This document shows, piece after piece, positions 31,408 through 64,000 of a stretch of DNA of 64,000 nt. Both the position numbers and the translations under genes were made by a program. Under the pieces are notes generated by a model. The model saw only the letters and a list, made by a program, of their open reading frames with translations. It did not search any database and had not been told where the DNA came from. Source of the stretch: Alternaria dauci (Eukaryota > Ascomycota > Dothideomycetes > Pleosporales > Pleosporaceae); assembly GCF_042100115.1 (NCBI RefSeq), contig NC_091278.1, forward strand, positions 248,001 through 312,000. The letters run 5' to 3'. Position 1 is the stretch's first letter, and every line of letters begins with the position of its first letter.

Positions 31408-34400
31408 ATGAACGAGCGGCCAGGAACCATTCCCGCCGCAGTGCACCACGCCCATCATCCACGCCGCCCGCCCGCCCACCAGTCTGTGTCTCTCCGCCAC
31501 AGCCCACCCGCCGCGAAGCGCAAGCCGAAAGCCTCAACAACCACAACAACACAGAGCTCGCCAAACCTCGCCAGCGACAAGGCCAACCCCCCGTCGAGCG
31601 TCTCGCCACAGCTGCTCTCCAACAAGACGAGCTCGGGCGAGAGCAGCGACGCGGGCCAGTGGTTTGAAAAGACCAACAACAACACGGCCAGCCGGGCCAA
31701 GTCGTCGTTTGTCGACAGTGAGTCTTGAGCCACGCACCCTCGCTGCCGCCCTGTGCCTAACCCAACCCCCCTCCCCACAGACGAGCCGCCCTTCTTCCTC
31801 CACAACTCGTCGTCGTCCGAGACACCGCCCGACAACTCACAATATGCCCACGCACACGCCGCCATGCCATACCGCCCCGGCCTCGGCCAGATGGGCACCG
31901 ACGGCAGCAGCACCGAGGACTTCCGCAGCGTCATCGACGACCTGACCGTGGCAAACAAGCGCCTGAAGCAGAAGCTGCGCAAGTACGAGAAGCTCTACGA
32001 CGCCCACCTGCAGGAGGAGAAGCTGTTCGAGGTGCGCTTCCACGGCCTGCCCGACCACAAGAAGAAGGAGCTCGAGGAGACGCTGCGCAAGTTTGCTTCC
32101 GAGCTCGACGACGGCGCCGCCAACGACTACGCCGACATGTCGGCCTTTGCCCCGCCGCTGCAGACACACAACACGGCCTCATCGAGCTCACGCTTCGCCG
32201 AGTCGGGCTATGCCTCGCTGTCGGCGTCGGGCCAGAACTCGTCGGCCACCAACCAGGACAATGACCGCCGCAAGATGACAAAGTCGGCCTACAGCCGCCA
32301 GCAGCAGACGATCCAGTCGTACCTCCACGACATCCCCATGGGCCTGCTGCCAAACACAAAGAGCGTCCCCATGACGGACAAGGCCAAGAAGAAGATGGTC
32401 GTGCGTCGGCTCGAGCAAATCTTTGCCGGCAAGCGGTCGGCCGCCGGCTCCCACCCCCAGCAGATGCAGCAGCAGGAGGTGGCCCAGTCGGCGGCGACAG
32501 CGGACCGCGAGCGCCGCGAAGCCACCGGACAGGACTCCAAGCCCGAGGGTCATCGCGAAGCACGCATCCGCAACGACCGCAGTGCCATTGCCGCTGCCGA
32601 GGACAACAACACGACCCAGGACGAGGCCGTCCAGGGCTTCCGCCCCAGTCTGCACATTGAGGAACACGACTTTGCCGGCTCAGGCTCGTCTCCCGATCAA
32701 CGGCCTACGCGGCCGCTCGACTTGGACCCCTACCGTGCTCAGGTGCCTGCCGACAACATGAACTACATCCGCCATCTTGGATTCTCCCCGCCAGACATGA
32801 ACTCTGGAGAGGTGCCTCTCGGCCACGGGTGGATATACCTCAACCTGCTCATCAACATGGCGCAGCTGCACACCCTCAACGTCACCCCCGAGTTTGTCAA
32901 GGATGCCCTGCACGAGTACAGCAGCCATCTCGAAATGTCTCGCGATGGACGCAAGATCCGATGGAAGGGCGGCCTCGACGTCACCAAGAACAGCGGCAGC
33001 AGCTCGTCGGAGCACTGGGGCGGTGCCTCGCCAAACGAGACTGGCTCCCAGTCGCCGTTCAAGCAAATCCCCACGGGCACTAGCGGCACCAGCAGCGACA
33101 TGCTCGACGAGTCTGCAAAGGCAAAACGACTGGCCCGCGTGCGGCGCGAGAAGGAGCAGAACAAGTTTGCCTACAAGCCGCTCTTCTTCCACAAGGACGA
33201 CTCTGACAACGAAGACGACTACTACGGCTTCGACGCGGATTCCTCAGCCGAATACTCCTACCAGCCACATCCGGCTGGAAACTCTTCGGGCCTGAGTAGT
33301 TCGATTATGCAGAGTTCGAGCTCGAAGCCGCGGAGACGCGACGACGGGCCTATGATCTTTTACACAAAGGCCAAGTTCTGCACTGATCTGAGCGGAGACC
33401 GCAATGGTGCTTTTCTCACCATGCCTGGCAACTACCAACCCATCACAACCCAGCCTCTTGGCGCCACGCAGACTGCGTCCCCACAAGCCAAGACGTCCCT
33501 GGATCTATCCGAGCCCCGGGGCCCTCTAGACACGACGCCCATGGATGTTGACTCGACGGCTGGATCGCGCACCGTTCACAGCGACGACCTAGGCTTCTCG
33601 CCCGAGGCTCTGAGGAATGACAGCGGAAACACGTCGCCTGAACTCATGGACTTTGAAGCTTCTGGTCTGGGCGGTGTGCAGCCAGAAGATAACTTTTCTA
33701 TCCACGTGCGACGCTCACAGATTTCCACTGCGCCACCGCAGGGCGCTGCGAGGAGAATGTCACACTTATACCCCAAGGCCATTCAGGACGCACTCAACTC
33801 GCGCCCACACTCTGCGTCCCCTGAAGTCGAGTCTCCGCGCTCGAGCCCGCACCGTGTCATTGAAGAAAAGATCCTTTCCGCATCTCGCAAGAACCTCCCC
33901 TCGTCTGCGCTCCCACCTGCGTCCTTTTTACCCCTCGATTCGTGTTCCTCTGGGGACGTCGACAGCGATTTCGCGTCCGATGCTTCCTCTGAACCTGACG
34001 ATAGCGATAGCGAGTCTGGCGGGCCGGCGACGGCTATGCAGATACTGAATATTGCGCCGATACCGTCCGATATGTCGGAGGGGAGCGAGTCGGATTACGA
34101 GGATAGCGGTGATGACGATGATGATGACGGGTCGGTGGATTTATTGGCCACGGCGAGGAAACAGGATCCGTCGGCTGTAAGGGCGAGTGAGCGCGAGTAT
34201 GATGCTGCGCTTGCGGATCGCTTGGCTGAGGAGATTCAGGCGGGGAGTAGTGCGGCGACGGCGGGTGGGGGGAGTGGATTCAATTCGCCGGTTGGTGGTG
34301 GGGCCGGATTGGTGAGGAAGAGTTTGGAGGGTAGTAGTGTGGCGAGCCAGGGGAGTGTGGCGGGAGGACAGCAGATACCGGGCAAGCTGAAGAGGGCGAG

Positions 34401-34467
34401 GACGAGCGATGGGTTTAGTAATTTGCCGCCCAAGAAGAGTCCGAAGACGAGGAGGATGGGTGAGTAG
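31408..34467 (+). CDS. frq: Frequency (FRQ) circadian clock protein
   Basis: Two exons, 31408-31717 and 31781-34467, with a 63-bp intron (GTGAGT..CCACAG) splitting the Asn of FVDNEPPF; 998 residues, like Neurospora FRQ (989). MPYRPGLGQMGTDGSS, EDFRSVIDDLTVANKRLKQK (start of the dimerising coiled coil, about 155-185) and LPDHKKKELEETLRKFASEL are highly conserved in FRQ. Further on are DNMNYIRHLGFSPPD in the casein-kinase-binding region, a basic nuclear signal KRLARVRREKEQNK near 550, acidic Ser-rich PEST-like stretches and a basic C-terminus (SPKTRRMGE). FRQ is the negative element that inhibits the White Collar Complex. An in-frame upstream ATG at 31234 exists; 31408 is preferred because its N-terminus matches the family. 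Confidence 0.95.
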
Positions 34468-42336: not shown

Positions 42337-44520
42337 TCAAACACCCATACTCTCCTCGAACCGTCTAGCAATCTCCAACATCTCAGCATCCAGCCTCGAC
42401 CCACTCAGAAACGTCACGCTGAACGGCAACGCACCCTCATCTCCCTCTTTCCCACTCAATTCCTTCACCGGATACGTCCCCGCCGGAACAGCCACACCGC
42501 ACAAATCCAGCACATTTCCACAATGCGTGAACTCGCCCAACATACTGTTCTTCTTGATGGGGTCAGCAAGCACCTCGCCTATCCTCCAGTGCGTCGGCGC
42601 CGTTGGTACAACGACTACATCGACGCCGGCAGCAGAGTATGCAAAGACCTTCTCTGCCTGGCGGGTGTAGAGAGCTTGCGCTTGTAGGTCGCGGTATACA
42701 TCTACAGCCGAGCTCTTCCGCGCAACCACATCGTCCATAAGTTGGGCGATTACAGGATGTAGTCCTGAGCGGTTCTTCTTAAGAAAGTCATCTGGGAGGG
42801 AGGCTAGGCGTTCGGAAACAAACGTGCCGTCGTAGAGGAGTTGGCCTGCTTTTTGAAAGGGCGACCAGTCAATTGGTGTGAGGACGCCGCCGATTGCTTG
42901 TAGCTTTGCTACCGTCTCGTTGAACATGCGCCGAGCTGGTGTTGAGCAGATGGCAAGTGCTTCCGGTGGTGGGATGCCGAACTTGAATGTGCGCGATTGC
43001 GGGCCGATACTGTTTACGTGGCGTTCGAACGCTATCTCAGACTTCGCATAGGGATCGAGTGGATCGTGGCCTTCAAGAATCTGCCAGAGCGTTCGCGCGT
43101 CGGATATGGTTTTTGTGGAGAGTGCGATGCAGTCTAGTGACAGACACGCTGGTGTGATGCCTCGAAAGGAGATTGTGCCTCGTGTAGGCTTATACCCGAC
43201 GATGCCGTTGAGGCCAGCAGGCACTCTACCCGACCCGGCTGTATCCGTTGCCAGGGAGAATGAGACGAGGCCCGCTCCTACTGATACTGTGCTGCCACTG
43301 CTTGAACCGCCGCTGATGTAGTCTTTGTGGTATTCTGAATGGGTGATACCGTATGGGCTGCGGCAGCCTACGAGTCCGGTGGCGAGCTGATCCAAGTTGG
43401 TCTTTCCTATGAACAAAGCACCTTCAGCGATGACCTTTTCGTATACAGGAGCAGAAGATGAAGGTATATGAGCCAGTGGCGGACATGCAGTCGTGGTAGG
43501 AAGACCGGCAATATTTATACTGTCTTTGACGCTGAAAGGAACGCCAAACAATGGTGGAAGCGCGTTGCGATCAGGAAAAGTCGATACCAATTGTCTTGCG
43601 GCGTCCAGAGTTACTACACGTGGCGGCAGGTGTATCCATACTGCCGGATCAATCTTTTTGTATGCTTCGATTTTGTCGTAGACCGCGTCAACGACTGTTA
43701 GGGGCGAAAGTCCATTCTTATACGCTCGCTGAAGAGCGGGTATTGTAAGGTCGCCGTCAAATATCGACGGTGCTTGACAGGGTGCCGAATTGGCATCGAC
43801 CGTCTTGTTTGACACTGGTGCGAGAGCCTCCAGTAAAGGATCCAAACTACCAATGTATCCGAACAGGCCTTGTGACCAGTGAATCATATCCAAAGTTGGC
43901 TTCTTGAAGCAAGCGTCGTTGTATCCACTCGTGGCCTCCTCAATGCCACAACATTCGAAACCCCGGTCGTTCGCTTCCCGGATGGTAGTAGCAAAGCAAC
44001 ATTCCGTAGTGACACCAGAGACGATGAGATGTGTGATGGCTCTTGCCTTGAGTTGATGCAGAATAGTCGTATTCCAGAACGAGCCTTTGCCTGGTTTATC
44101 GATGACAACCTCTCCGGGCAACGGTTTCAGCTCTTCTATGATGTCGTGCCCGTACTCGCCACGCGTAAGTAGGTGACCAAGCTCTCCCTTGTCACCTATG
44201 ACTAGTTTGTGCTGGGTATTACCGGGCGCAGCTTCTTGTCTGACCAACTTTGATGATGGACAGTCGGAGAGATCTGGTTTATGGCCTTCGCGGGTGTGAA
44301 AGACAGCCATTCCAGCGCTCCGGCACGCTCCCAATAACTTTTTAGTTGGCGCAATCGATGCTTGGACAGCTTGTAAGTTTCCCCCTTGGATTTCGCCGAA
44401 ACCTCTGGCGAGCAGGAAGTCGCGTTGCATGTCGATTATGAGCAACGCGGTGTGTTCCAGAGGGAAGGAAAACGCGTATGGCTTCGCTTCAAAGGAGAGC
44501 ATCGTGTCGTTGGAAGGCAT
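42337..44520 (-). CDS. Biuret-hydrolase-like (isochorismatase fold) + allophanate-hydrolase-like amidase fusion
   Basis: One uninterrupted frame; 727 residues from the ATG at 44520 (a longer frame to 44709 adds 63 unlikely residues). Residues about 20-230 are an isochorismatase-like cysteine hydrolase: Asp30 in LIIDMQRDF, Lys142/145 in IDKPGKGSF and Cys174/175 in GVTTECCF. HTREGHKPDL, LTRGEYGHDII and REANDRGFEC are specially like bacterial biuret hydrolase. Residues about 245-727 are an amidase-signature domain: Lys332 in SVKDSI, Ser406-408 in GGSSSGS and the nucleophile Ser430 in DTAGSGRVPAG, resembling the amidase half of allophanate hydrolase (AtzF/Dur1,2). Its separate C-terminal domain is missing. 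Biuret to allophanate to NH3 and CO2 in one polypeptide is the inferred reaction; ureidoacrylate-type substrates are an alternative. Confidence 0.85.
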   Translation of the reverse strand: MPSNDTMLSFEAKPYAFSFPLEHTALLIIDMQRDFLLARGFGEIQGGNLQAVQASIAPTKKLLGACRSAGMAVFHTREGHKPDLSDCPSSKLVRQEAAPGNTQHKLVIGDKGELGHLLTRGEYGHDIIEELKPLPGEVVIDKPGKGSFWNTTILHQLKARAITHLIVSGVTTECCFATTIREANDRGFECCGIEEATSGYNDACFKKPTLDMIHWSQGLFGYIGSLDPLLEALAPVSNKTVDANSAPCQAPSIFDGDLTIPALQRAYKNGLSPLTVVDAVYDKIEAYKKIDPAVWIHLPPRVVTLDAARQLVSTFPDRNALPPLFGVPFSVKDSINIAGLPTTTACPPLAHIPSSSAPVYEKVIAEGALFIGKTNLDQLATGLVGCRSPYGITHSEYHKDYISGGSSSGSTVSVGAGLVSFSLATDTAGSGRVPAGLNGIVGYKPTRGTISFRGITPACLSLDCIALSTKTISDARTLWQILEGHDPLDPYAKSEIAFERHVNSIGPQSRTFKFGIPPPEALAICSTPARRMFNETVAKLQAIGGVLTPIDWSPFQKAGQLLYDGTFVSERLASLPDDFLKKNRSGLHPVIAQLMDDVVARKSSAVDVYRDLQAQALYTRQAEKVFAYSAAGVDVVVVPTAPTHWRIGEVLADPIKKNSMLGEFTHCGNVLDLCGVAVPAGTYPVKELSGKEGDEGALPFSVTFLSGSRLDAEMLEIARRFEESMGV

Positions 44521-45282
44521 GGTTGCCGTAGTTCGCAATAGAGTGAGGTTACAAGGACGCGATGATTGGAGGGTTGTGCCTATGCCAAACAGGCCAGGTT
44601 TCTCCAATGTCAAGTAGGAAACAAAGACATACAGAACCCTGGAAGAGAATGCCAATGCTCCATATTGGCTTCCGAAGTTGAACTCATCAGATGAACGTGG
44701 CGAATCCAAGACTGGCCGCGAACGGCATATGCAACGGGCCTACGGCAGGCGGCGGCGCGAGATTCAAGGTTTCTTATCGAGAAGACACTACCGTGGTCAT
44801 CGGCATGAGTTTTGTATGTATGCGGCTAGCAGGGGGGCTGGTTTTGTGGGGCTCAAAGTCACTTGCTACGGCGGAGCACTAACTTCTCATTAGTGGGGAA
44901 GCATCCGAAGTCTGACCGAATCAGCGTTTCTACACACATTATCGATGCCTCCGAGCATAGTAGTAAGAAACCAGCTTAGCGTGCCTCAGCGATAAGAGAC
45001 CTCCACTGTGCCCAGCGGCTGACACTGTCTACATATGGAGATTGAAGCTTTGGATTTCTTGATAATTATGCCAAACTGCTCCCGCCTCCGCACTCACCCC
45101 GCCGCGCCAACGGCGCACCTCCGAGATAGGAATCGATATGGTTATCAAACTCGGGACCATCATGGTATGGGCCATATAGCTGTCGCGATCCGGTAACCAA
45201 GACTGCGGAGCTTCATAAAGGCCGGATGTAGCCCTGATCGATTGGAATCCAGTGTATTCGTTGTATCGTGTTACTTCCGACC
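44521..45282. promoter_or_regulatory. Shared divergent promoter with six GATA-factor sites
   Basis: Between the fusion enzyme (leftward) and the permease (rightward). HGATAR sites, either strand: 44774-44779, 44939-44944, 44990-44995, 45060-45065, 45124-45129 and 45142-45147. Such clusters bind AreA/Gln3-type activators in nitrogen catabolite repression. A CCG-N6-CGG palindrome at 45102-45113 could bind a Zn2Cys6 dimer such as the neighbour at 47512. Roles are inferred from motif and position. Confidence 0.5.
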
Positions 45283-47073
45283 ATGTCTGTGCTCAAGGCG
45301 AGGCTTGCACCTCACTTTCATCTCAGGGTACCCTTTGAGAGCGGTAAATATGGGTCGCGCTGGTCGAACAGAGGTATGTAGTTGATGATACATGTGTCTG
45401 TAGGAGCCAAGCTAAACACCAGGTCAACAACAGATCTTGATCCGGTTCCTCCTCAACAGCGTACCTGGGGTGGGCTTGACTACTGGGCGTACTGGTGCTC
45501 GGACATGCTCGCCCCTCCTTTGGCATCCACCGTCAGCAGTGTCATGGCGCTAGGTTTTACGGCTAGAGAAACAATACCCATCGTCTTCTTCGGCTTTGCC
45601 ATCTGCAGCGTGGTCATAACACTCACTGGAAAGATGGGTGCCACATATGCTGTGTCATTCCCCGTTGTCATTCGAAGTGTTTTTGGCATGTATGGCTCGT
45701 TTCCAGCGATCTGCATCCGAGCCTTTGTTGCGATGATGTGGGCTGCTATTCTTACAGTGCAGGCAAGCAACTTCTTGCAACGTTGTCTTGAGGCGATCTG
45801 GCCAAGCTTCATCACTTTTCCGAATCGTTTACCTAAGAACGCTGGTATCGATTGTACGGCTCATCCATCTGTTCCTATATATGCGTGTTGCTGATAGTCT
45901 TGTAGCGGCTGGCTTGCTTTGCTTGTTCCTATACTGGTTCCTCCAGACCGCGCTCGCCCTTATGCCGATCTCGAAGTTGCGCGTTCTGTTTTGGATCAAG
46001 AGTATCGTCGTGCCACCAACGTTCTTCGCCCTGTTCCTTTGGGCTGTGATTGTGACCAAGGGGTGAGTATCTCTGCGGATTATGCATCTGTGAACGACAC
46101 TGACCCCGTATCCAGTGGCGGTCCGCTCATCAAGGGAAAAGTAGAGATTACCTCGTCTTATATGAATACGACCTACTCAGTCCTTACCGGGCTCAACGCC
46201 GTCGTTGGACTTTTCTCATCTCTAGCCGTCAATATGCCAGATTTCGGAAGGTTCTCGAAGAATCAGCTCGCTGGTTACCACCAGTTCCTCGCCTTACCCA
46301 TCATTGGAACATTGGGAGCGCTGACACCCATCTTCGTCACTGATGCTCACTCTTACATATGGGGCGACTTTGAGTGGTATATGCCAGACGTCATCGCCAA
46401 GTTCGATTCGCGGGCTGCCAAATTCTTCGTATCTGCCAGCTTCCTCCTTGCCACGATCGGAAACCAAATCGCAGCAGATACGTATCCGTTCGCAAACGAT
46501 GTCGCCGGTATGCTACCAAAATACATCAACATCTTCCGGGCTACCATCATCATCTCTGTCTTTTGCATCGTATCCACTCCATGGAATATCATTAAGAATG
46601 CGTCTGGCTTGCTCTCGTTCCTGAGCGGCTACTCATGTCTCATGGGTCCTCTCGCAGGTACCATGGTCAGCGACTATTACCTCGTAAAGAAGGGCAAGCT
46701 CGATGTGGATCAACTATACACTGACCATGGCATCTATTGGTACAATGGCGGTTGGAACTGGAGAGCATATGCGTCCTTTGTTGTAGGATTTGCTCCCCTT
46801 CTCCCTGGCTTTGCGAAGAGTATCGACAACACTTTAAATATCGGTGGTGCATGGAAAGTCTACACATTCGCATGGATCTTTGGGTTCTGCATTTCGCTAG
46901 TAACGCACTACGTTATCTGCGTGTACGTTTCGCCCGTAACAGGGTCGTTGGTAGAGAGTGCGGTGTATCCGCCGCAAAAGGGGGAGGCGATCGCGCCAAT
47001 CCTAGAAGGCGAAGAACCATCGAACAGGGAGACACTCGTGGCCAAGGAAAAGGGGATAGCTGATATGGCTTAA
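45283..47073 (+). CDS. NCS1-family nucleobase/allantoin-type permease
   Basis: Four exons, 45283-45343, 45404-45853, 45906-46062 and 46116-47073, with introns of 60, 52 and 53 bp; 541 residues. The N-terminus leads into DLDPVPPQQRTWGGLDYWAYW, the entry motif of NCS1 (Fur-type) carriers, then about 12 hydrophobic helices including ITLTGKMGATYAVSFPVV, NMPDFGRFSKN and GPLAGTMVSDYYLVKKGKLDVDQLY, all family signatures. Fungal members import uracil, allantoin, uridine or related ureides with protons at the plasma membrane. The divergent partner hydrolyses a urea-like compound, so uptake of a ureide or related nitrogen source is inferred. The first exon (61 bp) was chosen because it alone keeps frame. 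Confidence 0.9.
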
Positions 47074-47511
47074 AATAATGTCGTCTCGAGAATTTCGATC
47101 AGGAACAATTGGTATCTGCTTCTGCCTTTCCGTGCATGATGTTGTGGATGAGTAGCAAAGATTGGGTGTTCTCTTAGTGATGTCGCTGATTAATGTGCTC
47201 TTGGTCAGTGCTCGCGCGCGCTACCGGTAGACCTCGGCTGATTCTTAACTCTCCATCCTCCCTATCCATGCCTCAACGCCCATCGCATACACGTCATCGG
47301 TAACTCTCCAACAGAGCTAGCAGCTAGGTCCAACATGCACCAAGCCAGCGTGGTAGTGTGATGCATTGAATCCATGGAGAGAACACCACGGCCAGCCACT
47401 TTACCAAGTAGTCACGCGGACGCGTTTCCAGGACCGCGACTCCATCGACATCGGATTCGCGTCATCCGTCTGTTACCAAGACGGACGCGCACTGCACGCT
47501 GAAATGCAAAC
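47074..47511. other. Intergenic, promoter of the regulator
   Basis: No gene seen. Frames shorter than 70 codons without motifs. Confidence 0.5.
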
Positions 47512-49641
47512 ATGAACTTCATGCCTGTTGAGAATCCGTCCCCAACCCACATCGTGCGTGCAGCCAAAACCCAAACCACCAAATCGAAATCGCGCCGCCC
47601 ATGCGACCCATGCCGTCGACGAAAGTCACGGTGCGAGATCTCGGAAGGCGGTCCACCGTGTGTCCTTTGTCAATTCCATGATCAAGAATGCACCTTCAAC
47701 GAGAATCCGCAACCGCGGAAACGGCGCGCTGTCGCTATCAACGAAGGCTCTGAACCGTCCGCAACCGTCCGTGGCCAAATACCTCTTGCAAACGATTACG
47801 GAATAAGTACTGCGGCTTCTACATCTCCTCAAGAGAATGCAGCTAGGATTCGACAGGATCCACCGATCGATGACTATGCAAATTTACGTGGTCCTTCGCT
47901 CCTGAAGAAGACGCTGGGTCTGCAGACTAGCAAGCACAGTCGTTTTGTCGGTTCTACTTCGGAGTACGAACGTCTCTTGTTGGCATTCGAGCCACTCCAG
48001 CCAGTTGCTGGCGTTGATGCTTCGGTTGGCCACCCAATATTTCGAAAAGTGGGTGAAACTGACCCAACAATATTCGTCTTGTCTCCTGATGCCGGCACGC
48101 TGAACAGTCATAGTGACATTCCAGATCTTGACGCTATCGAGATGGCCGTAGCACCACATGGCTCTGCGTTGATACGTCTCTTCTTTAGAATCGTACATCC
48201 CAGCTTCCCAATCTTGCACAAGAAAGTGTTCTTAGAGAAATATGAGCGGACTCACCGAGAGTTCTCGCCCCCGCTTCTGGCAGCAGTGTATCTCCTGGCT
48301 CTGAACTGGTGGGCATATTCCAGCGAGTTGGCTTTGCAACCCAAGCCAGATGTTTCGCATCTAGAAGGATTGGCAATGAAGTCGTTCAGCAATATTGTCC
48401 ACAGGCCTAAACTTTCGACTTTACAGGCAGGCTTACTGCTTCTCCAGCGTCCAGAGGGCAACGGCTGGGCATTGACATGCCAGCTCGTGGGTTTGGGGCA
48501 AGACATGGGTCTCCAACTTGACTGTACGACATGGCACATACCGGATTGGGAGCGCGGTCTGCGCAAGCGTCTGGCATGGGCTGTATTAATGCAGGATAAA
48601 TGGGGCTCTCTTATATATGGTCGCCCCTCACACATTACGCAAACCGATTGGGATGTGCAGCCCCTGACTGAAGACGACTTTCCAGAGAACGCCGCAGATG
48701 AGGATGACGAAGACGGAAGTACCGAGGTAGAGAAAGGACGAATCATGTTCTGTTGCATGGTAGAACTCACACAAATTCTGGCACAGATCCTGTCAACTTT
48801 CTATACGCTGAAGGCCGAGCGCGACTTCGCCAGCCGTGCCCAGGAAGGCGTCAGATCGCTACTTGAAGCAGCCAAGCCTTTACAGCTTACACTACGCCAA
48901 TGGTATGCCAACATGCCATCTGCGCTCAAGATGCAGGACATAGCTCCAAGAAAGCTTTCCAGTGTCGGTTACCTCCACCTTGGCTACTACGCCGTCGAAA
49001 TGACCTTGCATCGACGTATCGTTCGCTCATTGTCTCCATCAGATGGTCCTGAAATCCGCGCTATATGCCGTCAGGCTGCACAAAGCCGACTCACATCTGC
49101 CTTGAGCTTCGTACAATCGCTCCGACCAGAGCATCTCCAATCGTTCTGGTACTCGTCTTCGACATACAACTTCGTGCTCATCGGCTCTTTCATCTCGCTT
49201 CTCTGGGTGACATCTCCCGATAAAGAAGAAGCAGTGAAATATCGAGCGCATATGGACGAGTATAAATGGATCATACGTCTCTCTAGTAAATCGGCAGACT
49301 TTCTCGAGAGAGCGCTGGTATCGCTGGATCTAACTACCAGTGCGCTAATGAAGGCTGTACCTGATGGCATCGTTCCTCCCTCGACCGCGAATGGTCATCA
49401 GATCAGAGCGGGCGATGAACCACGTTATGATGCTAATGCGGGCGACTCCCAAAACTCCAGATCCGTGCAAAATGTCTCAAACTCGCCTGCTACATATCTC
49501 GGTGGAGGAATAGGCGAAATGCTGTTAGAAGATAATGGCCTGGCTGATCATTCGTGGTTCAACACGGTAGACGCGAGCAACTTCGATGGTGATTACAATA
49601 TTCATGGCGTGGCTCTGCCGGGGCAGCCAGATCTGACATAA
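47512..49641 (+). CDS. Zn2Cys6 transcription factor, Dal81/TamA-like
   Basis: An intronless frame of 709 residues. The binuclear cluster is at residues 31-60 (Cys 31, 34, 41, 50, 53, 60; spacing C-x2-C-x6-C-x8-C-x2-C-x6-C) with basic CDPCRRRKSRCE and the linker ENPQPRKRR. The fungal-type trans-regulatory middle domain follows (LFFRIVHPSFPILHKKVF, LGQDMGLQLDCTTWHIPDWERGLRKRLAW). CVLCQFHDQECTF plus PQPRKRR recalls the Dal81/TamA group, co-regulators of allantoin, urea and GABA use; this subfamily call is moderate. An acidic run (DEDDEDGSTEVEKG) lies mid-protein. It is nuclear and likely controls the adjacent permease and fusion enzyme. Confidence 0.88.
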   Translation: MNFMPVENPSPTHIVRAAKTQTTKSKSRRPCDPCRRRKSRCEISEGGPPCVLCQFHDQECTFNENPQPRKRRAVAINEGSEPSATVRGQIPLANDYGISTAASTSPQENAARIRQDPPIDDYANLRGPSLLKKTLGLQTSKHSRFVGSTSEYERLLLAFEPLQPVAGVDASVGHPIFRKVGETDPTIFVLSPDAGTLNSHSDIPDLDAIEMAVAPHGSALIRLFFRIVHPSFPILHKKVFLEKYERTHREFSPPLLAAVYLLALNWWAYSSELALQPKPDVSHLEGLAMKSFSNIVHRPKLSTLQAGLLLLQRPEGNGWALTCQLVGLGQDMGLQLDCTTWHIPDWERGLRKRLAWAVLMQDKWGSLIYGRPSHITQTDWDVQPLTEDDFPENAADEDDEDGSTEVEKGRIMFCCMVELTQILAQILSTFYTLKAERDFASRAQEGVRSLLEAAKPLQLTLRQWYANMPSALKMQDIAPRKLSSVGYLHLGYYAVEMTLHRRIVRSLSPSDGPEIRAICRQAAQSRLTSALSFVQSLRPEHLQSFWYSSSTYNFVLIGSFISLLWVTSPDKEEAVKYRAHMDEYKWIIRLSSKSADFLERALVSLDLTTSALMKAVPDGIVPPSTANGHQIRAGDEPRYDANAGDSQNSRSVQNVSNSPATYLGGGIGEMLLEDNGLADHSWFNTVDASNFDGDYNIHGVALPGQPDLT

Positions 49642-56182: not shown

Positions 56183-56899
56183 ATGCGTTCCTTCGCCGTC
56201 ATTGCTGGCTTCGCCGCCGTTGCCCTTGCTGCTCCCCAGTACGAGGCTTACCCAGCTGCCCCAGCTTCGTCTTCGGCTCCCGCAGAGTACCCTGCCTACC
56301 CTGCCGAGTCCTCTTCGGCCCCTGCCTACGAGGCTGCCTCATCCGCTGCCGAGTACCCATCCTACCCCGCTGAGACCTCCGCTGCCTACGAGGCCTCCAA
56401 GCCTGCCTATGAGGCCAGCTCCGCTGCCCCGGTCTACAGCGCTACCAAGCCCGCTTACACCACCACCGAGGTTGTCCACGCCACCAGCTACGTCTGCCCT
56501 GAGCCAACCACCATCACCTACGGTGCTTCGACCTACACCATCTCCTCCAGCACCACCCTCTCTATCCCTGAGTACACCGCGACTTACGTCCACACCCCCA
56601 GCGCTGAGGTCCCGACTGTCCCCAAGCCCACTGCTAGTGTGACCGCTTCCGTCTCCGGCCACCCCTCTGTCCCTGAGGCTTCTCACACTGCTCCGGGATA
56701 CTCTGCTGCTCCTCCCGCTCCCCTGTACCCCAGCTCCAACGGCACCGTTCCCCACGTCCCTGCCGGAACTGGCTACCCCACTGGTACCGGTGCTGTCCCC
56801 AGCTCCACCAAGCCCGCCACTCCTGAGTTCACTGGTGCTGCTGGCAAGGTCACCGTTGGCTTCTTCGCCATCGCTGGTGCCGTCGCTGCTTTCTTGTAA
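56183..56899 (+). CDS. Secreted Ser/Pro/Tyr-rich GPI-type cell-wall protein
   Basis: An intronless frame of 238 residues. The signal peptide is MRSFAVIAGFAAVALAAPQ. Residues about 20-100 are imperfect repeats of an EYPxYPAExSSAPAYEA type unit; a short folded-looking core (TEVVHATSYVCPEPTTITYGAS) with one Cys follows, then a Thr/Ser/Pro stretch and a C-terminal hydrophobic tail (GFFAIAGAVAAFL) after FTGAAG, fitting a GPI signal. Strong codon bias and a TATA element suggest high expression. Structural wall protein or adhesin is inferred. Confidence 0.85.
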   Translation: MRSFAVIAGFAAVALAAPQYEAYPAAPASSSAPAEYPAYPAESSSAPAYEAASSAAEYPSYPAETSAAYEASKPAYEASSAAPVYSATKPAYTTTEVVHATSYVCPEPTTITYGASTYTISSSTTLSIPEYTATYVHTPSAEVPTVPKPTASVTASVSGHPSVPEASHTAPGYSAAPPAPLYPSSNGTVPHVPAGTGYPTGTGAVPSSTKPATPEFTGAAGKVTVGFFAIAGAVAAFL

Positions 56900-58149
56900 G
56901 CGGTTCGCTCATGAGTGATTTGTCGGGACATGGTTCTCCATGTCTCTGCTAGTCTCTTGTCGAGTTTTGGAAAGAGGAGGAAATAAAACATGGCTTCACG
57001 GGTTACGACTTCAACTCTGCATCACGATTCAGTCTAGGATTGGGAGCGCGGTGTTGGCGGTACGAACTCTTGCTTCCTTGCGCAAGCACAGTCGCAGCAG
57101 CATTTCGATGGTTAATATACTTGGTATTGTAATACGCCTTGGTTGGAATGCTTACTGGCCCTATGGAGGGAGTCGTGTGGTCCGGTGGTCTTCTTGTTCC
57201 TAGATTCTTTGCCTGTTCTTGAGAAGAGTCGACTACTTAATGACATGATTTCCACCTCTACTTCACGGCATGACTATTCAACGTCTGATACCCTTGTACA
57301 TATTCTCGCATGAATTTTATTCGACACTTTTTACACTTGATTTCATCTCCTATCGTGCACGTTTTGTCATTCTTCTTCCATCGATATCTCGTATGTCATG
57401 TCGTTGAACGTCTTTCTTCTTTTTCCAATACCTTGATGATGATCGTTCGCAACACACGTGAGTGCCCCCTGAGACCCTGACCCAGGAAATTGCACAGGCC
57501 GCCTTATCCTGCAACACGGCATCTGGCCCCCAACCCATTCATCCGCTTATGGACACACATTTATCCGACAAACGTCAAAATGCGTCACCCTTCTCCCGCG
57601 CGTAATTTAGAATCGGTTCCTCGGCACCGGAATCATTCTTTTTACGGACATTTCCTCATTTATGGTGACGGGGTGGGTGCTGCTCGCGCGATTCACGCTA
57701 ATCTGTTTTGGGACGCGACGTGGCTCACGCTGCGGCACAGGAACGACTATGATCCCTGGGATGACCTTCCTCCACGATAACGCCATGTTGCAGTCTACCG
57801 ATCTGCAAAGCCTAATTAGGCAGGTCAATATTGCCCAAGCGCGCATTCGCACACGCCGCTTGTTATGAGCCCAGGTCTTCCCGGTGAAGTCGGACTCTTC
57901 CAAGGTTGGTCTCCAACCACCAAAGCATCATTGAAGGACATCGTCGCGTACGATGACATGTCATGCAGTGCTATACGGACCTTGTGCACTCAACTACATA
58001 CTCAGAGCAGTAAGGGGCATCACTCACCCTGAAGCAAAGTTTAAAGCCAGAATTGGGAAGGGATGAAAGCTTGCGTGTATTGGTTAACCAGCTTTGTTGA
58101 GTACACAGCGCCCAAAGCTGGCTTAAAGTTTGTGAGCGGAAATGAGACA
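56900..58149. other. Intergenic, no gene supported
   Basis: Two overlapping frames of under 100 codons (57490-57780 plus, 57607-57903 minus) lack motifs. Confidence 0.45.
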
Positions 58150-58826
58150 AGTGATGGTCCGTTCACGACTCTTCATCCTCGACTCTGGCGGAGGATCTTT
58201 AGGCATACTGCTGGACTTGACACCGATCCCCAATTGCGGCTTCATCTGAGTAAGCCGTTTAGCGTTCCGTCTCCCAAGACGACTGGTCCTTAGCGCGCGC
58301 ATACCGCAATGCCGACCTTCAGATGCTCATACAGCTCACAAACTTCTTTGCTGGCGTTTGCCTCGATCCAGATATTCGGGATGCGATAGAATTCTACTCT
58401 GACGAACAAGGTAAAGAGCTGGCTCCAGACGGACAGAACCATATCGTTGAAGCGGATGCGATGAACGTCTTAGAACGATTTGGCGGAGCCTATCGAGCTG
58501 AGTGACGTGTCATCAGCAGCAGATAATGGCATTACGTACAACCAAATCTTCGATAACGATGTCCGAATTGGAAAGATTATAGATGGCGAGATCATCGACG
58601 AGATCTTGGCTGATGAGCAAGAACTCCAGGAGGTTTACCTCATGCCCTCGAGTTGAAGACCGATGAGAAGCCTAGGCACCTTCTAGAAGACCAGGGCGAA
58701 TTCGGTGACGGTCAGAGAATTGATTCATTGGAGCGTCCGCTAAAAAGAAACGATTCCGTCGAAGACAAGCCCGCCGGCTCATCACCTAGTCTAGACTCAA
58801 AGAACTTCATCGCCTCCGACCAGTAA
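58150..58826 (+). pseudogene. Frameshifted relic of a Pleosporales-type hypothetical gene
   Basis: Protein-like sequence continues through three plus-strand segments in alternating frames without introns: a first piece to about 58275 (LRLHLSKPFSV), 58263-58502 (DDWSLARAYRNADLQMLIQL, FFAGVCLDPDIRDAIEFY), then 58498-58653 in another frame (NGITYNQIFDNDVRIGKIID) and back again at 58650-58826 (SPSLDSKNFIASDQ then stop). Alternating shifts look like small insertions and deletions in a dead gene, or assembly errors. Family unknown. Confidence 0.5.
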
Positions 58827-59299: not shown

Positions 59300-60307
59300 C
59301 TACCATTCTCTCTCCTCAGTAGGCACCTCTCCCGTTTCCTCCCAATGGCGTATCGCATCTTCATAGGCTTTGTGGTAAGCCTTTCGTCGCTCCTCCATTG
59401 AAGGACGGTCTGGATGGCTCTCATCAAACTCCCTCTCTAACTGGCGGAACTCCGCATCTGGCGGAAGGGGATCATATCCTTCCGTCGGCTGAATGTAAAA
59501 TACTCGCAGGTCTTTGTCCACACGATTTTCTTCACTAAAGCGTATCATCGCGTCCAGATCTCGACACTGACGGTTGTAGGTGAGCTCGGGATCTGCCGTA
59601 GGCTCCCCTTCGACCCAAACGTAATTCATAACTTCGTATCCGACGTGGCACGTCAGGTGATCTAGCAAAGCGTGGAGGCAATGCTTTGTGTGAATCCAAT
59701 CCATCGTATCGTTTGGGTATCTGTAATGCTCGCGATACAGCCGTTTCCGGATGTGGTCGAGGCAGTGAATGTTGTGCGTGTGAGCAAATCGCGTGATAAA
59801 CTTCTTCTCGCCGTAGCCAAAGTTCTGTGGGACACCGATATAACGATCTGGGTCTTTGCCGAGGATGCGCATGTCGTCTTCTGTTATCAGGAAGGGATAA
59901 CCGGTGGTCAGCGCATGCCATGCTGCGTCGACTTCTGGGCTTGGTGACTGCTGCCAGATGGTTCCGTTGCTTCCTGCAAAGACGGGGATATTGGTGTGGT
60001 TGAAGCGGGTGCTTCGATCAACGTTTTGCAGGAACGATGGTTCTGATATCATGCTGTATTAGCTACAGTTTCCGTGACGGGAAGATGACGTACCAGATAG
60101 GACCTGTTCTTTCTGTGTATACTGAAACGTCAAGCCAAAGACAAAGAACAGGATAGCCACCACAGTGTATTTCAAGAAAGAGCAAAGCAGCTGGAGAGAG
60201 AGAACAGGTTTCTTGCGGACTTCACCGTTTGGAACTGCTGATGGCAACAGGTCTTCTGACTCTTCAGCGTCTTCACTTTGAGACAGCTTGCGCCACGAAT
60301 GGTCCAT
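59300..60307 (-). CDS. UstYa-family (DUF3328) membrane oxidase, RiPP/mycotoxin-type tailoring
   Basis: Two exons on the minus strand, 60094-60307 and 59300-60042, with a 51-bp intron (GTACGT..ATCAG); 318 residues. An acidic cytosolic head is followed by one membrane helix (about 37-60) and a lumenal domain: SPSPEVDAAWHALTTG, then HNIHC (161-165) and HTKHC (189-193), the paired HxxHC motifs that define UstYa/DUF3328. Known members bind metal and oxidatively cyclise ribosomal peptides (ustiloxin, phomopsin, asperipin) or act in other mycotoxin pathways. The C-terminal approximately 70 residues are charged and longer than usual. It is divergently transcribed from the next HxxHC protein, 643 bp away. 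Confidence 0.9.
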
Positions 60308-60950
60308 GATGTCTTGTACGTGATGGTACAGATACGTCCGACGCTTCTGGCATACAAAGTCAACGAAAGCTCATTAGACTCGCTGTGCGCTTTCCGAGGC
60401 AGCAACGATACCTAACGACCCCCACACAACATGCTTACTAACAGCCTCATTGCGGGACGGATCCTTCGGAACATCATTACTGAGGGGTAGATGCATGCAT
60501 CGGGGCGAAGCTGCATGCTTTCGAGGCAGAATAAGCTGTTCTACCGGCTGTGTACGGCCTTGATTCGGCACATTTGCGGGCCGGCCCCGTCGGACGCCAT
60601 CGCTGTATATCTTCAATATCAAAAGTTTAATCCAAGGACCGCGTACTTCTCCCTCAAATACCGCTAGTGGATCAACACGATGTCAGCTCAAGTCTGCCAC
60701 GAGACGGTCCGCTGATGATAAGAGTCTCCACCTTGCAGTCAACCAACGATACCGTACACTCTTCGATTAGACATATGCACCATTCTACTTTACAAATCAT
60801 CCCGTTTTTCGCTACTTAAGTCTACGAATTAGGAAGAGAGAGGTGAAACCACACCGATCGAACGGGAAGTCAGAGTAAGCACTCCACTACAACTGTATCC
60901 TAGACCCCACCTCACGCCGTACAGTACAGCTCCACACATATACGAAACCG
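60308..60950. promoter_or_regulatory. Shared divergent promoter of the two HxxHC genes
   Basis: 643 bp between two outward-facing cluster genes. No gene inside (an 82-codon minus frame at 60374-60622 lacks motifs). Co-regulation from this region is inferred. Confidence 0.45.
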
Positions 60951-61619
60951 ATGTTTCGCCGCTTCTTCATTTTCCTCAAACCGTTGAGCGCGGGTGCGGA
61001 GGTCGGAGCCGCAGAAGAGCGAGTTGGGCTCACTTCACTCTCGACAAAATACAGCAGCGACGATCCCAAGCCACGAAAAAACCTTATCCTCCGAGGAGTC
61101 GTCGCCATCCTCGTTGCCGTTCTAACTGTATATGGAGCTTATGCGGCCGGATCCCAGACCCTCGCAACGCTGACACGAGATGACGCCTCATGTGTATGTG
61201 GTGTCACGACTGCCGAAGGAATCTCGCGGAACTGCAAGTTTGATGAGATCGAGCTATGCTGGTTGAGGCCGGAGTGTATAGACTCCAAGCTTACGCATGA
61301 ATTCATGACGGCTTCTCGTTCCGACCCCGGGGGTGTTTGGCTATACCAAACTGAGCTTGATGGCAAACAGCGTCTGATCAACGGCACCGAGCTATCGATG
61401 CTCATTGAGCCTGGGCGGACCATATGGTTTACCTACGAGCAGCATGTTGCACATTGTGTTTTTGCGTGGAGAAAGCAGTTCCGGCAGCAGTTCACAGGCA
61501 TCGTGATGCCTACGACGGCATCAGATGAGGGACATATCAGGCATTGTGGTGAAATGTTTATGCTAAACGCTAGCTTGGAGGAGAGACGCACGAAGCTGGT
61601 GTATCCTTCTGAAGTGTAG
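60951..61619 (+). CDS. Second membrane-tethered HxxHC protein (UstY-related)
   Basis: An intronless frame of 222 residues. A basic N-terminal head and one membrane helix (about 46-66) are followed by a lumenal domain with CVCG at 81-84, [11 protein letters not shown] (101-111), [14 protein letters not shown] (HxxHC at 165-169) and GHIRHC (HxxHC at 195-199). The CxCG ... WLxPxC ... HxxHCxxxWRK ... HxxHC layout is a large unnamed fungal family I recall near secondary-metabolite genes; the twin HxxHC motifs and topology parallel UstYa. It probably works beside UstYa on the adjacent precursor peptide (inference). Confidence 0.8.
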
Positions 61620-62278
61620 TTAGATCAGCTGAAGCTATCGTCAAAGAGCAACTAGCGCTCACAAAATGCATGTGGCATCGTCCCGTCCCCGACGACGGTC
61701 CATTCTCAAGCATCAGGCTTGGCCACGCTTAGTCAAGACGTACCTCCGCAGAACCCACCAAACAAGTGGGGATAGTTTTTTGAGAATCGATGTGGAAGAG
61801 CGCTGATCGCGAGCATGTGGGGAGACGAATGACGACGAGTTGAACACCTAGTAACCCAGTTAGCTATGAGGATGCAGCTTGGCCAACCATTGCCAAGCTA
61901 CCGAGCAAGTAAATGGTACGATTGTGGCAGTTCATGGTGGAGAGTACACTCTGACGGCCATTCGTTGGAACCTGAAGACATGCATTGTCATTCGCTGAAC
62001 TCTGCCATACCGTCAGACGTCCGGTAGGCCGCGTGTACTTTACAGGAGACAAGCCCATGTACCAGAGATGACCGAGCGTCATTACGAACTTTGTAACTGA
62101 ACTCGGGTTACATGGCCAGAAGGACGTTAGATCATCTTCATCTTTATCAGCAGAGAGGCCTACAAATAGCTGCCCAGAAATGCGTGTGGCTATTTGTCTT
62201 TTCCTACACAAACACAGTTGAATCTTGCGAAGACCCCTAAGCCCAGTTTTATATTCTCACTCGTACGCATAGCCCAAC
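61620..62278. other. Intergenic, promoter of the precursor peptide gene
   Basis: A 115-codon minus frame at 61864-62211 has no motif and is not called. A TTATATTC element lies about 30 bp before the precursor ATG. Confidence 0.45.
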
Positions 62279-62583
62279 ATGCACAAGAGCTTGTTCCTTC
62301 TCATCGCTTTGGTTGGATTATCGGCGGCAGCCGCTTCTCGTAAGTTTCCTTTCAGCACCGTGATAGGAAAATGACCGTACTAATTGTCGAAGCTGGTGCA
62401 GAAGAACCTCATAATGTGAAGAAGCGCGCTACCTATATTGATTTATTCAGAGATGAGGGGCCAGCTCCGGCGCCAGAAGTGGAGGTTGAAGTGAAGGAAA
62501 AGAAGCGCGCTACCTACATCGATCTGTTTAAAGACGAGGGCCCCGCACCTGCGCCGGAGCAGGAGGCCGAGAATAAGGAATGA
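62279..62583 (+). CDS. Predicted RiPP precursor peptide with two KKR-flanked core repeats
   Basis: Two exons, 62279-62339 and 62402-62583 (62-bp intron, branch TACTAAT; an alternative acceptor at 62392 adds three residues); 80 residues. Residues 1 to about 19 are a signal peptide (MHKSLFLLIALVGLSAAAA). Two 27-residue repeats follow, each KKR-ATYIDLF-(R/K)DEGPAPAPE plus an acidic Val/Glu or Gln spacer; KKR codons are at 62419-62427 and 62500-62508. Signal peptide, Kex2 sites and repeated Tyr-containing cores are the hallmark of dikaritin precursors such as UstA. The core differs from those I know (YAIG, YVIPID, and GLKLAF in victorin). The second repeat uses different synonymous codons (TAT/TAC, TTA/CTG), so the peptide is conserved over the DNA. 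Confidence 0.85.
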
Positions 62584-62640
62584 TCGGGCCGTTCAGGTAG
62601 CGGAGAAGAATGTCGACGACAAGGGCGGTGTCGGAGAGGG

Positions 62641-62651
62641 ATATATATAAA
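62641..62651 (+). promoter_or_regulatory. TATA box of the GT90 gene
   Basis: TATATAAA (62644-62651) 72 bp before the ATG at 62723. A start site about 30 bp downstream would exclude the earlier ATG at 62657, supporting 62723. Only 139 bp separate the precursor stop from this start, a compact arrangement. Confidence 0.55.
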
Positions 62652-62722
62652 GGAATATGAATGAATGCCAGACGTACTGTTCTCATGTTGAGCCTTCTAC
62701 CGTGCCTGCACTCACTACAACC

Positions 62723-64000
62723 ATGCAACACCTACTCCTGACATGCATTCTTGTTGCAGTGGCAACGTGGGGAGCCTCGATCGCATATTCAAGAATATAC
62801 ACTCCATTACATCCTCTCGAGCGTTTAACCGATGTTGCCGAGGACCACTTCCAGTCTTTGGCGGCTCACGAAGCTCATACATACGCGCAGGCGGTAAAGT
62901 CATACCGACACCGACGCGGACGATGTCCACCACCAGGCTTCCGAGTCTTCTACGAACGCCTTCAACAGTCAGGAGGGATCTCGATCGAGCCATTCTGGGA
63001 TCAGATCTACGATGACTTGGAACCATTCTGGGGCGTCCCAGCAGAGACCACGCAGAGTGCTGCGGCCTCGCTGGTCTCTCTCGCCAGATTTCAGAAGCCC
63101 ATTGAAAGACTCCAAGGATTCTCTTTTCGACGTGGAGAAGTTCGAGCTAGTTGCCCGAAAGAAGACATGACCTGCGATGATCAACTGAGTTTGCTAAGGA
63201 GAATCGCCCCGCTGTTGCCGGATGTTGACGTGGTGGTGAGTGTGCATGCCTCGCCTCGTGTGCTCGTTCCTTGGTCTGTGATGGAGCAAGCCCGACAGCA
63301 GGCACGCCAGCATATCCTTCTAGCATCACGCTCCGCAGGCGCCCAGATTCATGTTCATGCGGGCATCAGCAGGGCCGTCCATTCTGATGAGGAAGACGTC
63401 GTGAAGGGATGGAATCGAGGTAAGCCACGGCGCCGGCATGTGCGAAGCTTCTCGGGTTGACTTTTGGACTGCGCGCAGATATCCCTCCATACGCTTTCCG
63501 CAGCGTCGTCTGTCCTCCACAAAACTCACCGTCCGATCACGTACCACTGGCGAATTCTGCTGTCCAAGACGTGTGCGCTCAACCAGAGTTGGCCGGTATC
63601 CACGGCACGATGTTGGCGCCTCACATGGTGTCGACATCGTCTACCCTTCTACCCATTTTCTCCTCAACGCACATACGACACGTGAGCGCCGAAATCACAG
63701 TCCCTGACTTATGGACGTGGGTGGACGAACCCAGTTTCAGCCTCCCTGAACACTTGGTCAACTCGTCCGTGGGCGTGGCGTGGTCAGAGAAGCACAACAA
63801 GGCCATCTGGCGGGGCTCGAACACTGGAGGCAGGCATAATTCCTTGACGTGGATGAAGTCCCATCGCCATCGTTTTGTAGCTCTAATGAACTCCACTTTC
63901 CTTGAAGCTGTCAGCGGTGGTCAAACCGACTGGACTAATGCTTCTCTGGGGAACATAGCGACCATCGAACCACCACACTCTGACTGGATGAACGAGCATC
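62723..64000 (+). CDS. GT90-family glycosyltransferase (partial, runs off window)
   Basis: Exon 1 is 62723-63419; a 59-bp intron (GTAAGC..GCGCAG) leads to exon 2 from 63479 to beyond the window end. It opens with a signal anchor (MQHLLLTCILVAVATWGASI). RRGRCPPPGF, FWDQIYDDLEPFWGVP and KAIWRGSNTGG are signatures of GT90 (Cap10/POGLUT-like) transferases, Golgi-type enzymes that add xylose or glucose to proteins or polysaccharides. The C-terminal part of the domain is missing. Being 139 bp from the precursor and on the same strand, it may be a cluster member, which would be unusual for dikaritins; it may also be an unrelated neighbour. Confidence 0.85.

Follow-up and report, generated by a model that had tools for sequence, protein, structure and literature searches.

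Does the right end of a 64,000-nucleotide window of the Alternaria dauci genome hold the genes for a ribosomally synthesized and post-translationally modified peptide (RiPP), and if so, where does the gene set end? The window, meaning the whole stretch analysed, is positions 248001-312000 of contig NC_091278.1 (C7 below) in a 34.9-Mb genome of 10 contigs. A first-pass annotation had proposed that two membrane oxidases, a secreted repeat precursor and a glycosyltransferase found there belong to a RiPP cluster continuing to the right. The cluster described here consists of five genes in 7.7 kb. Rightward from position 59300 they are a UstYa-family oxidase gene (minus strand), a second oxidase-like gene called gene B (plus), the precursor gene (plus), a family-90 glycosyltransferase gene (GT90) and an S28 peptidase gene. 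Judged from sequence, the precursor and the oxidases probably form a small UstY-type RiPP pathway operating along the same lines as those of the dikaritins, with ATYIDLF as core peptide. Intergenic gaps range from about 140 to 730 bp: UstYa and gene B are divergent, with 643 bp between them, gene B lies about 660 bp from the precursor, the precursor stop is followed after about 140 bp by the GT90 start on the same strand, and about 730 bp separate GT90 from the S28 gene. Positions are given on the window scale unless a contig is named, and the splice sites of all gene models were inferred.

The precursor peptide

The precursor gene lies on the plus strand in two exons, 62279-62339 and 62402-62583 (or 62393-62583), and encodes 80 or 83 amino acids. 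Exon 1 encodes MHKSLFLLIALVGLSAAAAS plus one base and ends at a GTAAGT donor; both acceptors are in phase, and the products obtained with 62393 or 62402 differ solely in residues between the signal and the first KKR. The N-terminus is signal-like by hydropathy, with a mean of +2.3 over residues 4-19. Two 27-residue repeats follow, of the form KKR-ATYIDLF-[R/K]-DEGPAPAPE-(V/Q)E...KE, exactly 81 bases apart, and a tandem-repeat finder also detects this 81-base, 2-copy repeat.

The conserved 20-codon block KKRATYIDLF[R/K]DEGPAPAPE of repeat 1 (KKRATYIDLFRDEGPAPAPE, 62419-62478, plus strand) was compared with that of repeat 2 (KKRATYIDLFKDEGPAPAPE, 62500-62559, plus strand). The two blocks differ at 13 bases; 12 of these differences are synonymous and one replaces Arg by Lys. 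Over these first 20 codons the proportion of synonymous differences (pS) is 0.87, which is saturated, and that of nonsynonymous differences (pN) is 0.022; in the last 7 codons of the repeat pN rises to 0.33. When 12 base changes were placed randomly over 19 codons, none of 20,000 simulations left one residue change or fewer, the mean being 8.0. The peptide encoded by the repeats is under strong protein-level selection. The predominance of synonymous differences further indicates that the copies are old and not recently homogenised, and that the core and the DEGPAPAPE follower are both selected. The secreted repeat precursor of the first-pass annotation is borne out.

The pattern is rare. Two [KR]R sites within one open frame of at least 40 residues, each followed by the same seven residues, occurred once in 248,376 bases drawn from 26 of 58 sequence sources; 10 order-2 Markov shuffles of equal length did not contain it. 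Genome-wide (34.9 Mb, E ≤ 10), the precursor matched its own two exons only. In the open-access literature, as far as its text could be searched, ATYIDLF, TYIDLF and YIDLF gave a single match, YIDLF in a paper on magnetic resonance imaging segmentation, which agrees with the first-pass annotation, where no cluster with this core was known.

The two HxxHC membrane proteins

The first-pass annotation had also named two HxxHC membrane oxidases, and two genes with paired HxxHC motifs are indeed present. The UstYa gene, on the minus strand at 60307-59300, encodes a type II membrane oxidase of 318 residues (PF11807, DUF3328) with the motifs HNIHC and HTKHC; its exon 1 (60307-60094) and exon 2 (60042-59300) are separated by a 51-nt intron (60093-60043). 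The spliced protein matches PF11807 at E 1.6e-34 (120.1 bits, cut-off 25), and exon 2 alone, at E 2.8e-32, is the best of 18 PF11807 exon matches genome-wide.

Gene B (60951-61619, plus strand, one exon) encodes 222 residues with the motifs HVAHC and HIRHC, an N-terminal motif C-x11-C-x-FD-x5-W-x4-C and, in the model, one hydrophobic helix at residues 42-68. It has no PF11807 match itself. Together with seven other proteins of the genome it forms a family of eight, four of which reach PF11807 at E ≤ 1 (the best at 5.4e-5). Profile-profile alignment by hhalign of these eight members with six UstYa sequences gave E 1.5e-5 and a probability of 79.7 over 53 columns, with both HxxHC motifs aligned. 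C83, C95, W104, C109, C169 and C199 are invariant in all eight members, and two HxxHC motifs are present in seven, the exception being a plus-strand member on contig C6 in which the His residues of both are missing. With the window locus excluded, a UstYa gene is found no more than 20 kb away at two of the three other gene-B loci, against a random mean of 0.04 (P 0.0007), and no more than 5 kb away at one of the three (P 0.012), both distances having been chosen after the positions were seen. On the profile alignment, the PF11807 matches of its relatives and the proximity of other gene-B loci to UstYa genes, gene B is best regarded as a partner of UstYa from a divergent branch of the superfamily.

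Structure models were of little help. The mean pLDDT was 67 for gene B and 47 for UstYa exon 2. The gene B model had no match in the PDB at E ≤ 0.001, and a search of solved structures for relatives of UstYa or gene B found none, two matches at E 0.8 being taken as chance.

Several other loci of these families were noted along the way. C2:154635-157901 and C2:4212755-4217020 each combine a pair of PF11807 stretches with a tyrosinase match no more than 4 kb away, an ustiloxin-kind UstYa-UstYb-tyrosinase set of the sort that the window cluster lacks. Four gene-B-type double-HxxHC genes lie within 21 kb at C2:467853-488420, with no PF11807 gene within 20 kb, and may mark another oxidase-rich cluster. 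At C6:2664134-2666337 there are two divergent gene-B-type genes, with a UstYa gene some 17 kb away.

The S28 peptidase and the glycosyltransferase

The S28 peptidase (C7:313294-314997, equal to 65294-66997 on the window scale and wholly outside the window) has 567 residues and matches PF05577 at E 2.3e-42. It is closest to the prolyl endoprotease of Aspergillus niger (S28.004; structure 8b57), with which residues 83-563 align at E 4e-158 and 531 bits, far more strongly than with Pro-X carboxypeptidase (E 1.9e-16) or dipeptidyl peptidase 2 (E 2e-13). The protein has the S28 domain, the GGSYxG serine motif, FDPW and the H region, which hold the catalytic residues, and is classed here as an S28 prolyl endoprotease. 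About five S28 loci were found in the genome after merging of exon matches. The stretches matched at the others are 27-37% identical to the cluster S28; for one of them, a 330-residue piece, the best solved relative is again the A. niger enzyme, at only 117 bits. The A. niger enzyme is an acid protease that is secreted and has no known precursor partner, whereas the cluster S28 adjoins a precursor with a Pro-Ala follower. The A. niger protein is described as a post-proline cutter that accepts large substrates, in the part of the source consulted (PMC9147577). This family fit, together with the conserved PAPAP in the follower, suggests that the S28 peptidase could be a dedicated trimming enzyme cutting the Pro/Ala-rich follower, a proposal on which we are evenly divided but which offers the best starting point for further work on the locus.

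The GT90 gene, expected from the first-pass annotation, was confirmed on the plus strand in three inferred exons, 62723-63419, 63479-64162 and 64215-64564, the last two running past or lying beyond the window end at 64000. Its spliced product of 576 residues matches PF05686 (Glyco_transf_90) at E 1.9e-19 (70.3 bits, cut-off 24). The nearest solved structures are protein O-glucosyltransferases, POGLUT2 (E 4.4e-8) and Rumi (E 8.1e-6); the C-terminal catalytic stretch matches, although the cluster protein is only distantly related to them. That GT90 acts in the pathway, O-glycosylating Thr or Tyr, is doubtful; proposed from position and fit, it is the weakest step.

A proposed pathway and its alternatives

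Taken together, these genes suggest the following route. A signal peptide would carry the precursor into the secretory pathway and the endoplasmic reticulum, and a Kex2-type protease would cut after KKR and release two peptides starting with ATYIDLF, each with its follower [R/K]DEGPAPAPE. A candidate for this protease is the one match to a P-domain proprotein convertase in the genome (C6:794789, E 5.1e-29). The two HxxHC membrane proteins would then act on the core as oxidases, most likely cross-linking it through the side chain of its single Tyr. The S28 endoprotease may next cut the follower, exopeptidases would do the final trimming, and GT90 may add a sugar to Thr or Tyr. The signal, Kex2 and oxidation steps are drawn from what is known of the family, and the S28 and GT90 steps from position and fit.

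The cross-link has precedents in the parts of the literature consulted. A dicopper site for Tyr cross-linking has been described for UstY enzymes (PMC12186524). Ustiloxin and phomopsin have the link between an N-terminal Tyr and an internal Ile, epichloecyclin has it between Ile at the N-terminus and Tyr inside the peptide, and victorin between Phe at the C-terminus and an internal Leu (PMC9233826). In ATYIDLF the candidates beside Tyr are Ile, Asp, Leu and Phe. According to the sections consulted of a survey by Umemura (2020), Tyr occurs in 65.6% of the repeats when the precursor has a DUF3328 neighbour, in comparison with 38.2% when it has none (PMC7329392); by this enrichment, a Tyr-containing core counts in favour of a UstY-type RiPP.

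A number of observations weigh against this pathway and temper the confidence placed in it. Selection spans 20 residues and extends beyond ATYIDLF alone, and the precursor has only two repeats, fewer than the three or more tandem repeats of at least 8 residues that the Umemura survey requires. UstYa genes are common in this genome, as the 18 exon matches show, and the two other UstYa pairs on contig C2 have a tyrosinase within 4 kb, which the window pair does not. Of 35 tyrosinase matches (PF00264) in the genome, a single one lies on the cluster contig, 2.3 Mb away, and none of six S41 peptidase matches lies on that contig. The oxidase structure models are too weak to use. In the S28 gene model a signal peptide is not clearly recognisable, and the links of both S28 and GT90 to the pathway rest on their position and fit.

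Nor was a precursor of this pattern accepted around the remaining loci covered of either oxidase type, UstYa or gene B, where introns could hide some. For UstYa the search took in about 20 kb at each of five other loci, 9 kb at one and about 3.5 kb at five more, with C6:2647k left out. A looser scan (5 of 7 residues alike) returned eight frames, of which five were this precursor again and three came from other regions, one from each; a second loose scan, run without a control, returned two, both in one of those three regions. By eye, the frames from these other regions were Arg-rich stretches or a long acidic protein and no signal-peptide precursors, and they were rejected. The tandem-repeat finder, which detected an artificial control and the window cluster's own repeat, gave nothing at the gene-B-type loci of contigs C2 and C6 or in one further stretch.

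Among the alternatives, the one that survives best is narrower than the five-gene pathway: the RiPP pathway would comprise the precursor, UstYa and gene B only, with GT90 and S28 as ordinary neighbours. This is a minority view that nevertheless deserves weight, and the confidence in it overlaps with that in the RiPP pathway itself. Both enzymes belong to ordinary families in this genome, with about seven GT90 loci (exon matches merged) alongside the five or so of S28. Yet the GT90 start follows the precursor stop so closely on the same strand, and of all the S28 peptidases of the genome it is the one closest to the A. niger prolyl endoprotease that sits beside a PAPAP follower. The joint proposal at the opposite end, in which the S28 peptidase clips the conserved GPAPAPE follower and a Rumi-like GT90 O-glycosylates the oxidised ATYIDLF core, is put forward as no more than tentative.

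It is improbable that the precursor instead yields unmodified linear secreted peptides (a signal, a pheromone-like peptide or an effector) while the adjoining UstYa genes act on something else. Such an outcome would fit the survey sections consulted, in which 78% of the catalogued Kex2-processed repeat proteins and almost all pheromones are without a DUF3328 neighbour, as is the only Alternaria type in the survey table (G-9) (PMC7329392), and selection over 20 residues would suit a longer linear product. It accounts poorly for two UstY-superfamily genes within 3 kb upstream of the precursor, the nearer of them, gene B, at about 660 bp. We also recognise no resemblance between the ATYIDLF core and ascomycete alpha pheromones, which counts against linear peptides as well.

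UstYa-family enzymes act outside RiPPs too, so that the HxxHC proteins might serve a non-ribosomal or polyketide product to which the precursor is unrelated; this is very unlikely, as no NRPS or PKS gene was seen among the subset of frames tested in the right flank and the left part of the window. That the precursor is a chance or decayed frame, as its shortness and two exons might suggest, is contradicted by the substitution pattern of its repeats and can be practically discounted. The preferred reading remains a UstY-type RiPP pathway with the core ATYIDLF.

Comparison with described clusters

The cluster resembles those of the dikaritins (ustiloxin, phomopsin, asperipin-2a and victorin, the last compared by way of a review) in its secreted KR/KKR repeat precursor adjoining UstYa/DUF3328 genes, in a short core that offers an aromatic side chain to cross-link and, for some of them, in the presence of a peptidase gene. 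The layout expected by the first-pass annotation, a precursor with UstY-type enzymes, is that of a dikaritin-type cluster. The differences lie in the number of repeats (two, in contrast to 8 in phomopsin and 16 in ustiloxin), in the core (ATYIDLF instead of YAIG or FYYTGY), in the lack of a nearby tyrosinase, in an S28 peptidase in place of S41, and in the presence of GT90. The asperipin-2a cluster is also without tyrosinase and peptidase.

As quoted in the part of PMC12048977 consulted, the revised definition of dikaritins makes DUF3328 the class-defining enzyme. On its predicted genes the cluster falls within this definition, with a secreted precursor carrying a repeated core between Kex2 sites and a DUF3328 protein with two HxxHC motifs. 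It falls outside the five-gene dikaritin definition (Ding, quoted in PMC12048977) because it contains no tyrosinase; the peptidase or transporter of that definition is represented by S28, not the usual S41 type, and its methyltransferase was not seen among the frames put through Pfam or inspected by eye. The same source notes that working dikaritin clusters can be missing at least one of the five genes.

The survey of 1,461 fungal strains reported 7,878 Kex2-processed repeat proteins, 1,758 of them with a DUF3328 neighbour, and the present locus shares the precursor logic and gene neighbourhood of the latter. With two repeats it is under the threshold of three, and by the stated rule it would go unlisted (PMC7329392). 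A Venturia study, as far as consulted, accepted one or more repeats of at least 10 residues and found nine such clusters (PMC9632046).

Glycosyltransferases have some precedent, a putative RiPP cluster of Trichoderma reesei having been drawn with one of family 1 (PMC7099791, consulted in part). The term 'glycosyl' was not found in the text obtained of two fungal RiPP papers (PMC12048977 and PMC9233826), and no glycosylated UstY-type peptide was found in the literature searched, which is weak evidence of absence given that most subscription papers fall outside it. In two sets of literature matches, among those listed, 'peptidase S28' and 'GT90' respectively did not occur; of the S28 papers in a separate list one contained 'RiPP' once, and no title among the matches listed named an Alternaria RiPP cluster of this kind, again weak evidence of absence. 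The kind of cluster is already known; its core, its two repeats, S28 for S41, GT90 and the missing tyrosinase set the locus apart from described clusters.

Extent of the cluster and its surroundings

The genes flanking the cluster were found from part of the reading frames, which were put through Pfam or judged by eye, and the statements below hold for those frames. The first-pass annotation had expected the cluster to continue well to the right, and this did not hold. Beyond the GT90 end at 64.56 kb stands a single S28 peptidase, the next gene found encodes an FCP1-type phosphatase, and a long continuation is rejected because, as far as frames were tested, the rest of about 40 kb holds mostly housekeeping genes. 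Of the genes predicted there, a peptidase was present, as S28, whereas no P450, methyltransferase or transporter was seen. Pfam matches in this flank comprise the FCP1-type phosphatase with BRCT, a Zn2Cys6 factor, Rad54, a DEAH helicase and a PLP enzyme, together with a weak F-box-like match below the Pfam cut-off; a 480-residue frame gave no match. An aspartic protease, a sterol-glucosyltransferase-like protein and a GH43-like protein were recognised by eye. The Zn2Cys6 factor, about 7 kb past S28 with housekeeping genes between, was not counted as a cluster member.

On the left side, the closest long frame that looks coding specifies a secreted-looking protein rich in Ala, Pro and Ser and without a Pfam match; it ends at 56899, and the 2.4 kb from there to the cluster is mostly non-coding or decayed-looking. 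Within it, overlapping short frames at 58045-58826 hold protein-like stretches without a Pfam match and may represent a decayed gene. There is no sign of a horizontal or AT-rich island, GC being 0.49-0.56 in five 1-kb bins from 59 kb and 0.49-0.585 in the nine bins before.

Elsewhere in the window, 31729-34464 encodes the FRQ circadian clock protein (PF09421, E 4.9e-130), and 42340-49638 holds genes for one protein with both isochorismatase and amidase domains and for a purine/cytosine-type permease, with a Zn2Cys6 factor adjoining, which looks like a small nitrogen-use cluster. The genome also encodes a homologue of Alt a 1, identical to the A. alternata allergen at 84 of 88 residues.

Significance for UstY-type peptides

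With its defined core peptide and only five genes, the locus is compact enough for the entire set to be tested. It also exemplifies a kind of cluster that surveys based on repeat counts and domains can miss, because it has two repeats only and its second oxidase escapes PF11807. The proteases of ustiloxin were called unknown in a 2019 review (PMC6514808), and cluster-encoded peptidases were credited in general terms in a 2022 review (PMC9233826), both as consulted in part. If the S28 peptidase does trim the follower, it would be a specific candidate for freeing dikaritin cores of their flanking sequences, and if the proposal for S28 and GT90 together is true, the cluster would bring a new enzyme type to the trimming step and a glycosylated UstY-type peptide.

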